This document shows positions 10,017-56,101 of a stretch of DNA of 64,000 nucleotides, one piece after another. The notes under the pieces are model-generated. The model ran no database searches, had not been told where the DNA came from, and worked only from the letters and a program-made list of their open reading frames with translations. The DNA is taken from positions 1-64,000 of the forward strand of contig JAISIA010000040.1 of NCBI GenBank assembly GCA_031262295.1, in the 5' to 3' direction. The position numbers were made by a program, and so were the translations under genes. How positions within the stretch are numbered: position 1 is the stretch's first letter; each line of letters begins with the position of its first letter. Source of the stretch: Bacteroidales bacterium (GTDB lineage: Bacteria; Bacteroidota; Bacteroidia; Bacteroidales; P3).

Positions 10017-10391
10017 AATATAGTTTTTATAAAATAAATTCTTGTTTGGAAAAATTAAAACGGGGAAAAAATTTTTTAAAACGGCGTTTTGCCTTTTTGG
10101 TAATTTATTTTGGTGAAATTCAGAAAATAATTTGCTCATCCTACTCAAAAAATTGAAAAAACTAATATAAAAATTAAAAAAAAATACAATAGAATAATAA
10201 AATTTTTTAAACAACGTTTAATGGGGCAAACATTAGATTGTATATGGCAAGTAAAAGATTTGATTGAATTAATTTTATGATATTTTTATCCTTTTTTATA
10301 AAAAAAGCATCCTAAAAATTGTTATGTAAAATAAAAGGTCTATCTTTGCCGAGTTAAAAATTTAATAACGTTTTAAAAAAAATTATAAAAA

Positions 10392-15283: not shown

Positions 15284-15873
15284 ATATATGAAAAATGTAA
15301 TTTCAAAAAATATTTAACATTTTTTCCTTCAAATGTTAAAAGTCCAAACCTCCCAAATTGGAAACCCCCATTTGCATATATCAAATCTTTTTTGTACCTT
15401 TGCCAAAAGCAATCGCTTTTAAGGCAAAAGCATAATAATTTCCACATAACTTATATTTATTTTTTATTGTAAGATAATCATCTTATTATTAAGTTATTAC
15501 CTCCGACTAAAACTTCGTTTTAGAAAAATAAAACGAGGTTTTAGGAAATTATTTCTTCGTTTTAGCAAAATAAAACAGCGTTTTATTTTTGGAAAATTAG
15601 GTTTTCGTTTTTTTAATTAAAAATATAGAAAAACGGATTAAAATTTGCTTGTAGTGTGTTGAGGATTAATTGATTAAAAATTTGACAAAATTTTAACAAA
15701 TTTTGGTGCTCTAAAATTGAAAAATTGAGTGAAATGTTAAAAATTCGGCAAATTTTGTGTTTTTTTGATGAAAATATGTTAAAATTTGTCAAAAAATGGG
15801 GTTGGAAATGTTAAAAAAATTTGAAAAATGAAAAAGCTAAAAAATGGTGTATTTTTTTCCCTATTGTTTTTTC
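15284..15873 (+). repeat. Dispersed promoter-bearing intergenic element, copy A
   Basis: TTTAACATTTTTTCCTTCAAATGTTAAA palindrome (15313-15340); TTTG (15371)-N20-TACCTTTG (15395-15402); hairpin 15399-15428; CTAAAACTTCGTTTTAG micro-hairpins; conserved 3' half to GGGGTTGGAAATGTTAAAAAAATTTG. Aligns with copies B, C and D. Confidence 0.85.
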
Positions 15874-23731: not shown

Positions 23732-23766
23732 GTCGGCAACCGACCTTTATTTTTCCTAACGGAAGT
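23732..23766 (+). repeat. REP-like element copy 3
   Basis: GTCGGCAACCGACCTTTATTTTTCCTAACGGAAGT. Confidence 0.88.
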
Positions 23767-23817
23767 CGGGATATTATATTTATACATTAATAATTCAATA
23801 AAAATAAAACGCTGTTT

Positions 23818-23852
23818 GTCGGCAACCGACTTTTATTCGTCCTTACGGAAGT
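23818..23852 (+). repeat. REP-like element copy 4
   Basis: GTCGGCAACCGACTTTTATTCGTCCTTACGGAAGT, in tandem with copy 3; the following spacers share ATATTTATACATTAATAATT and end in ATAAAACGCTGTTT. Confidence 0.88.
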
Positions 23853-23990
23853 CTGGTTTTATATTTATACATTAATAATTTCATAAAAATAAAACGCTGT
23901 TTAAAAAAATTATTTCTTCGTTTTAGTAAATTAAAACGCTGTTTTTTCTCTACTATTTTATAGTTATTTTTCTTTAAATTAAGGTATTTT

Positions 23991-31505: not shown

Positions 31506-32087
31506 ATCACAAAAAAAATATATTTAACATTTTTTCCTTCAAATGTTAAATTCTCAATTTCCAAAATTGAAAATCGCCATTTGCATTTGTAAAATATTTT
31601 TTATATCTTTGCCGAAACAAAGTTTCCTTCTTAGGGCAATAAAGTCTTAATTCTCCCAATACTTATTTTTCATTTTTATCACAAGATAATCATCTTATAA
31701 TTAGTATATTATCTTTAACTAAAACTTCGTTTTAGTTAATTATTTCTTCGTTTTAGAAAAATAAATCTTCGTTTTAGCAAACTAAAACAGCGTTTTATTT
31801 TGGGAAAATGAGGATAAATTTTAAAAAATTAAAAATATAGAAAATCATATTAAAATTTGCTTGAATTGTATTGAGGATTAGTTGATTAAAAATTTTAGAA
31901 AATTTTAACAAATTTTGAAGCTCTAAAATTGAAAAATTGAGCAAAATGTTAAAAATTCGTCAAATTTTGTGTTTTTTTGATGAAATTATGTTAAAATTTG
32001 TCAAAAAATGGGGTTGGAAATGTTAAAAAAAATTTGAAAAATGAATAAGCAAAAAAATGGCATTTTTTTCCCTTATTGTTTTTTTTT
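31506..32087 (+). repeat. Dispersed promoter-bearing intergenic element, copy B
   Basis: TTTAACATTTTTTCCTTCAAATGTTAAA; TTTG (31580)-N20-TATCTTTG (31604-31611); TTGCC-GAAAC-AAA-GTTTC-...-GGCAA (31609-31639); three TTCGTTTTAG units; 3' half nearly identical to copy A. Confidence 0.87.
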
Positions 32088-44449: not shown

Positions 44450-45003
44450 TATTTTCAAAAAAATTTTAACAAAATTTACCCGCAAAATCATCAAATTTTA
44501 ACATTTAAGCCTTGTAAAAAACACATAATTTCACGATTTTTTAACATTTCAGCTTTTTTTCAATTTTAGAGCATCAAAATTTGTTAAAATTTTGTCAAAT
44601 TTTTAATTCATTAATTTTCAATATAATCCAAGCAAATTTTAATATAATTTTTCAAAATTTTAATTAAAAAATAAAAATCCTTATTTTCCCAGAAAAAAAC
44701 GAAGAAATATTCAAATAAAACGCTGTTTTATTTTGCTAAAACGAAGAAATAATTTACTAAAACGAAGATTTATTTAAAGATAATAAACTAATAATTAAAT
44801 GATTATCTTGCCATTAAAAATAAAAATAAGTATTGGGAGAATTAAGACTTTATTGCCCTAAGAAAGAAACTTTGTTTCGGCAAAGATATAAAATTATTTT
44901 GACAAATGCAAATGGCGTTTTCCAAATTGGGGTGTTCGGAACTTTAACATTTGAAGAAAAAAATGTTAAAAATTTTTTGAAAATACATTTTTCATACAAG
45001 GGG
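44450..45003 (-). repeat. Dispersed promoter-bearing intergenic element, copy C (reverse)
   Basis: Minus strand: TATGAAAAATGTATTTTCAAAAAAT...TTTAACATTTTTTTCTTCAAATGTTAAA; CCATTTG-N20-TATCTTTGCC; GAAAC-AAA-GTTTC hairpin (+ 44852-44883); AAATCTTCGTTTTAG and AAAACAGCGTTTTA units; GACAAAATTTTAACAAATTTTGATGCTCTAAAATTG. Confidence 0.85.
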
Positions 45004-55566: not shown

Positions 55567-56101
55567 ACACAAAAATATTTTTTTTAACATTTTTTCCTTC
55601 AAATGTTAAATTCAAAATTTAAAAACTGAAAATTGCCGTTTGCTTTTTTGAAAATAATTTTATATCTTTGCCGAAACAAAGCCCCTTTTTAAGGGCAATA
55701 AAGCTCTAATATTCCCAAATTTTATTTTCATTTTTTCTTTCAAGATAATAATCTTATTATTAGTTTGTTATCCTTAAATAAATCTTCGTTTTAGTAAATT
55801 ATTTCTTCGTTTTAGCAAAATAAAACAGCGTTTTATTTGAATTTTTCTTCGTTTTTTTCTGTAAAAATTAGAATTTGGTTTTTTTAATGAAAAATCTGAA
55901 AAAATAAATTAAAAGTTGCTTGAATTGTATTGATAATTAGCGAATTAATAATTTGACAAAATTTTAACAAATTTTTGTGTTGCAAAAATTGAATTTTTGA
56001 ATGAAATGTTAAAATTTGTTAAAATTTGGCGAAAAAATTTACTAAAGTGTTAAAAAAGGGGTAAAAAAAGGGGGTTGAAATGTTAAAAAAATTGGGAATT
56101 T
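55567..56101 (+). repeat. Dispersed promoter-bearing intergenic element, copy D
   Basis: TTTAACATTTTTTCCTTCAAATGTTAAA; TTTG (55639)-N20-TATCTTTG (55663-55670); TTGCC...GGGCAA with inner CCCTT-TTT-AAGGG; TTCGTTTTAG units, AAAACAGCGTTTTA; GACAAAATTTTAACAAATTTT. Confidence 0.85.

Follow-up and report, generated by a model that had tools for sequence, protein, structure and literature searches.

Copies of a dispersed intergenic repeat

The window analysed, a stretch of 64,000 nucleotides on contig JAISIA010000040.1 of a Bacteroidales draft assembly (G000; 2.04 Mb in 89 contigs), carries four related hairpins, A to D, all located within one intergenic repeat of ~540 bp. The four copies of this repeat can be aligned over ~540 bp, copies A and B being 82% identical. 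Copy A occupies positions 15305–15837 (+); copy B (31510–32050, +) lies between the ribosomal L13 gene and a UvrA-family gene; copy C is found on the minus strand (44492–44978, −); and copy D (55570–56091, +) is located between convergent genes, the downstream one encoding a dihydroorotate dehydrogenase family protein. From 5′ to 3′, the repeat is composed of an inverted repeat, TTTAACATTT-8-AAATGTTAAA (15313–15340, +, in copy A), a predicted promoter of the form TTTG-N20-TAnnTTTG, the hairpin, about 100 bp of further sequence, an array of 21-bp units, repeated TGTTAAA motifs and, at the 3′ side, AATGTTAAA, the inverted mirror of the 5′ TTTAACATTT end. The inverted AATGTTAAA is found near +495–515 in most copies, and in copy A the 3′-terminal AATGTTAAAA (15807–15816, +) is the inverted counterpart of the 5′ TTTAACATT.

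Over the whole genome, 40 full or partial copies were scored at 75–100% identity. The 28-bp head TTTAACATTTTTTCCTTCAAATGTTAAA was matched 106 times at ≤3 mismatches, and a looser head pattern detected 107 intact 5′ heads, the reversed controls giving 0 in both searches. The head count is a lower bound for the number of repeat copies, because many copies are located at contig ends of the draft assembly. Contig ends were often found inside the repeat (e.g. C63, C12, C47, C68 and C82); the assembly was therefore probably broken by the repeat and the copies under-counted. About 107 copies of 540 bp correspond to roughly 3% of the 2.04-Mb genome.

The homology among nearly all copies spans position 0 to about +540 and the flanking DNA differs; upstream modules are optional, being present in about half of the copies. 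All 50 copies for which both flanks were usable are intergenic. The order of the parts is retained in the very diverged copies L113–L116 and L119. Pairwise identity is 0.997–1.0 in the head arms, 0.885 in the −7 region and 0.75 over the whole element, the values for the head being inflated because the copies were gathered via the head. In the AT-rich 3′ half, the MAFFT columns are uncertain and single substitution rates were not used as evidence. Among the 190 genomes of the family, the identical head is present only in this genome and absent from its 189 relatives; heads with one mismatch gave six matches across three relatives, with a different centre. No match was found in IMG/VR (exact patterns) or in the phage and plasmid collections, ruling out a phage or plasmid origin.

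The 21-bp palindromic array

The array, made of CTTCGTTTTAG/AAAACGAAG units with AAAACAGCGTTTT as the final unit, is present in all four window copies, at 15508–15585 (+), 31720–31797 (+), 44696–44775 (−) and 55783–55855 (+) for copies A to D, respectively. As a 21-bp palindromic minisatellite, AAACGAAG-N12..14-AAACGAAG, it is dispersed in 27 of the 190 family genomes (reversed control near 0), with 210 matches in this genome, 107 in G186, 83 in G003 and 61 in G172. In the relatives, the AAACGAAG arrays occur in both orientations, the promoter repeat being absent. The distribution within the family is patchy: in the largest genus, g3, almost no genome carries the arrays. Being common to genera of the family, the AAACGAAG array is a separate lead.

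The repeat might represent an immobile, selected family of regulatory or chromosome-organising sites, in which a protein binds to the 21-bp arrays and the TGTTAAA motifs, the role of the promoter being only local. The strong part-by-part conservation despite divergence, the 21-bp phasing of about two helical turns, the dispersal of promoter-free AAACGAAG arrays in the family and the failure to find a transposase (Y1, DDE_Tnp_1 or rve) all agree with such sites. However, nearly all of g3 does without the arrays, the copies are mosaic and variable, and no binding protein is known; we regard this reading as a minor but real possibility. It is rather unlikely that more than 100 selected, self-transcribed non-coding units, each made of an operator-like palindrome, a fixed-spacing promoter and a helically phased 21-bp array and spread within one lineage without a detectable transposase, form a genome-wide regulatory or chromosome-organising network with the AAACGAAG array of the family as its protein-binding core.

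The promoter boxes and the outer arms

The primary sigma promoter of Bacteroidota consists of TTTG followed by TAnnTTTG (PMC7366714, PMC9723704), the boxes at −33 and −7 being separated by ~19–21 nt. The repeat copies carry TTTG and TAnnTTTG; where both could be located (72 copies), the spacer measures exactly 20 in all but one, that is in 71, and the stretch right after the −7 box varies in length. In copy A, the promoter covers 15371–15402 (+), with TACCTTTG at 15395–15402 as the −7 box, confirming that this box is overlapped by the 5′ outer arm of the hairpin. In Flavobacterium psychrophilum, TAnnTTTG spans −12 to −5 (PMC9723704), and transcription of copy A should accordingly start at 15407; the start-site geometry of the repeat is placed by analogy with that species. 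The likeness to the primary sigma promoters lies in the two boxes and their constant spacing, while the difference is that the promoter is here borne by a repeat, not set upstream of a gene. The next downstream gene is on the same strand for 26 and on the opposite strand for 24 of the 50 copies (p = 0.89), and this random orientation rules out a promoter of the downstream gene. Because the neighbour genes face either way, the predicted promoter appears to serve the repeat element itself, which it would transcribe. More than 100 transcription start sites, ignored by gene annotation, may come from the repeat.

Across 48 distinct variants, 97.9% of the outer-arm cells are paired and none shows a two-sided change, indicating that these arms are conserved, as proposed by the sequence-only reading, but do not covary. 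AAACAAAGTTT is retained by sequence in most of the very diverged copies, and the palindrome is therefore in part plain conservation. TTGCC-N8..30-GGCAA has six sites in the window, whereas shuffled sequence gave 1.15 ± 0.98; four of the six sites belong to the one repeat and are therefore non-independent, so that the excess reflects common descent, and the two remaining sites are near chance.

Control of the promoter by a protein or an extruded hairpin at TTTGCC...GGCAAA would agree with the nearly complete pairing of arms that flank the start site. It would also agree with the presence of GGCA in nearly all copies, though the −7 box requires no more than TTTG, and with the lack of GGCA at an ordinary −7 site such as that at 10341. 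The arm spacing, however, differs among copies, which is unusual for a fixed operator, and the inner arms change. Moreover, the diverged copies L071 and L092 have GGCTC, L113 and L114 are without GGCAA, and an operator would more plausibly be placed at the other palindrome, TTTAACATTT-8-AAATGTTAAA, which precedes the −33 box. An operator or cruciform at these arms is thus considered improbable.

Pairing and loss of pairing of the inner arms

The hairpin of copy A, TTTGCC (15399–15404)-AAAAGC-AATC-GCTTTT-AA-GGCAAA (15423–15428), lies on the plus strand over the −7 box and the predicted start site, and its sequence is exactly as claimed. TTGCC-GAAAC-AAA-GTTTC-...-GGCAA was found in copies B (31609–31639, +) and C (44883–44853, −). 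The hairpin region of copy D is present at 55668–55698 (+), but its CCCTT-TTT-AAGGG stem is off the inner-stem position of copies B and C, where GAAAC-AAA-GCCCC is unpaired; copy D is therefore classed as broken and forms another hairpin instead.

The set used for the stem analysis consisted of 77 copies with the promoter, giving 38 distinct loop-centred variants. The inner stem is at least 4 bp in 62 of the 77 copies and 5 bp in 34, and two-sided changes were identified, AAAGC/GCTTT, AAGAC/GTCTT, GAAC/GTTC and AAAAC/GTTTT against GAAAC/GTTTC. The statement that the inner arms change and still pair is thus valid for several copies; in 14 of the 77, however, corresponding to 12 of the 38 variants, the 3′ arm is swapped for GAGCC, GAGCT, GCTCG, GCCCC or GCTTT without compensation in the 5′ arm. 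In one further copy the stem measures 3 bp. The fifth inner-stem pair is mismatched in 17 of the 38 variants. The covariation-like pairing ascribed to the hairpin is only partly supported, the unpaired substitutions named as its refutation being largely present.

After shuffling of the 3′ arms, the observed match of 144 of 190 cells stood above the shuffled level of 134.6 ± 2.3 (0 of 5000 shuffles). Such a better-than-shuffled match is also expected from selection for pairing, and the relatedness of the copies can produce the same. Of the 49 distinct 22-nt segments taken downstream of the −7 box in related copies, 44 have a stem of at least 4 bp (shuffled expectation, 9.9), as do 6 of 18 other −33/−7-like sites (4.0 expected). 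On a tree built from the element without the hairpin, which is unreliable if copies recombine, the broken-stem class required 12 changes, of which at least 7 were forced; shuffled labels likewise averaged 12.0. This scatter of the stem classes, like that of shuffled labels, fits mosaic exchange or rapid change, not maintenance.

The 5′ outer arm is located in the −7 box, upstream of the predicted start, and the full hairpin should therefore be unable to form in RNA. With +1 at 15407, transcription would miss the entire 5′ outer arm as well as two inner-arm bases, in disagreement with the RNA hairpin that had been suggested for the case of a start farther upstream. The remaining 26-nt 5′-end RNA has a mean folding energy of −2.2 kcal/mol, and RNAalifold on 57 predicted transcripts gave six consensus pairs at −3.1 kcal/mol with a covariation term of −0.05. 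A search of Rfam yielded no family at the gathering score for the repeat, ruling out a known RNA family. RNA covariation was rejected on the basis of the broken stems, the outer arms without two-sided change, the scatter on the tree and the RNAalifold result, and the hairpin does not behave like a conserved RNA structure. That the hairpin forms the beginning of a structured non-coding RNA or leader, its arms covarying to maintain pairing, is very improbable: the two-sided changes seen in some copies at four positions of the stem, the arm match above shuffle and an own predicted promoter in 100+ copies speak for it, but the 14 broken copies, the outer arms without two-sided change and upstream of the predicted start, the weak folding, the transcript without consensus structure and the lack of an Rfam family at the gathering score speak against it. 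Arms that change yet pair among the copies of a repeat are, alone, not evidence of RNA structure; before RNA structure is called, stem breakage, the relatedness of the copies and the position of the start site should be checked.

A composite repeat with arms probably varying at the DNA level

The hairpin probably corresponds to the region around the start site of a promoter carried by a strictly intergenic, MITE-like and BrickBuilt-like composite repeat of ~540 bp, its arms varying by DNA-level processes. Each copy combines an inverted-repeat head and a predicted promoter of the housekeeping type with the 21-bp palindromic minisatellite and, at the end, an inverted motif. As a component of the −7 box, the 5′ outer arm would be retained, and the inner arms would correspond to the variable stretch downstream of this box. 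Differences among the inner arms may arise from mosaic exchange together with hairpin-templated change at short DNA palindromes; complementary arms would therefore be kept in some copies and lost in others. A DNA-level process behind the arm changes is plausible, and we infer hairpin-templated change at the start-site arms. Inversions were observed in the arrays: one array slot is occupied by AAATCTTCGTTTT in ~32 copies and by its exact reverse complement, AAAACGAAGATTT, in 11, and between identical AAAAC/GTTTT arms the loop is AGC in 74 and GCT in 10 of the slots of all copies, indicating that palindrome-associated flips occur within the repeat.

The window also includes two tandem 85-bp units (23732–23902) of a second dispersed repeat, which start with GTCGGCAACCGACCTTTATT...CCTAACGGAAGTC and end with AAACGCTGTTT. 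Pieces of this repeat substitute for parts of many promoter-repeat copies. In mosaic copies such as L022, L051, L060, L074, L081, L090 and others, the head or the promoter of the repeat is joined to a GTCGGCAACCGACC module, which suggests that repeat families have recombined with each other.

Relation to known repeat systems

With ~540 bp, no transposase open reading frame and 107 intact heads, the repeat agrees with the general description of MITEs (50–1000 bp, non-coding, AT-rich, high copy). The inverted ends, TTTAACATTT, are short (~10–16 bp), imperfect beyond and set in AT-rich surroundings. Inspection by eye of the AT-rich flanks, with no empty site for comparison, revealed no target-site duplication, and searches of this genome for Y1_Tnp, DDE_Tnp_1 and rve, with controls that matched, detected no transposase or insertion sequence with matching ends. 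Because of the short ends, the lack of a visible target duplication and the absence of the three transposase superfamilies, membership in MITEs proper is not established; for the latter two reasons mobility is unproven, and past mobility may be supposed. The genome has no Y1 HUH transposase, ruling out a RAYT/REP system; the repeat is dispersed and extragenic like REP palindromes but differs in this absence and in its units, which form 21-bp tandem arrays within a larger element.

The closest known system is BrickBuilt of Porphyromonas gingivalis, composed of a leader, 23-nt tandem repeats and a tail with small inverted ends, always intergenic and carrying promoters (PMC4596501). Both are non-coding, strictly intergenic and multi-copy, with tandem repeats between leader and tail and small inverted ends, and both have a narrow host range; the promoter activity of BrickBuilt is paralleled here by −33/−7 boxes that predict a promoter. 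In contrast to the 23-nt direct repeats of BrickBuilt, the unit is a 21-bp palindrome (AAACGAAG), and neither the BrickBuilt end sequence GAGACCTTTGCA nor IS5-like ends were found at the ends of the repeat, which are TTTAACATTT. The repeat is also several times more abundant (~107 intact heads against 19 copies). Unlike BrickBuilt, it has one strongly constrained inward TAnnTTTG promoter and an extra inverted repeat at the head, and no matching insertion sequence was found for it. Correia elements of Neisseria are short promoter-bearing repeats with inverted ends, present in >100 copies and largely intergenic (PMC10969869). The repeat resembles them in its promoter boxes, inverted ends, >100 copies and intergenic sites; Correia elements, however, are located mainly upstream of genes and have well-defined ends, whereas the repeat is randomly oriented and longer, with short and imperfect ends.

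In a public genome collection, the head was detected on two contigs, L105 (JAISHK010000006.1), assigned to an Endomicrobium MAG, and L106 (JAISIT010000119.1), assigned to a Methanoflexus MAG. The isolate-name prefix Hm464, common to the two MAGs, may stand for the termite Hodotermes mossambicus, in which case the repeat-bearing genome would probably come from a termite gut symbiont. Close orthologues of their genes were not found in this genome. L106 has Bacteroidota-like TAnnTTTG boxes and a protein of L105 has a C-terminus resembling a Bacteroidota sorting tail; both contigs therefore look mis-binned.
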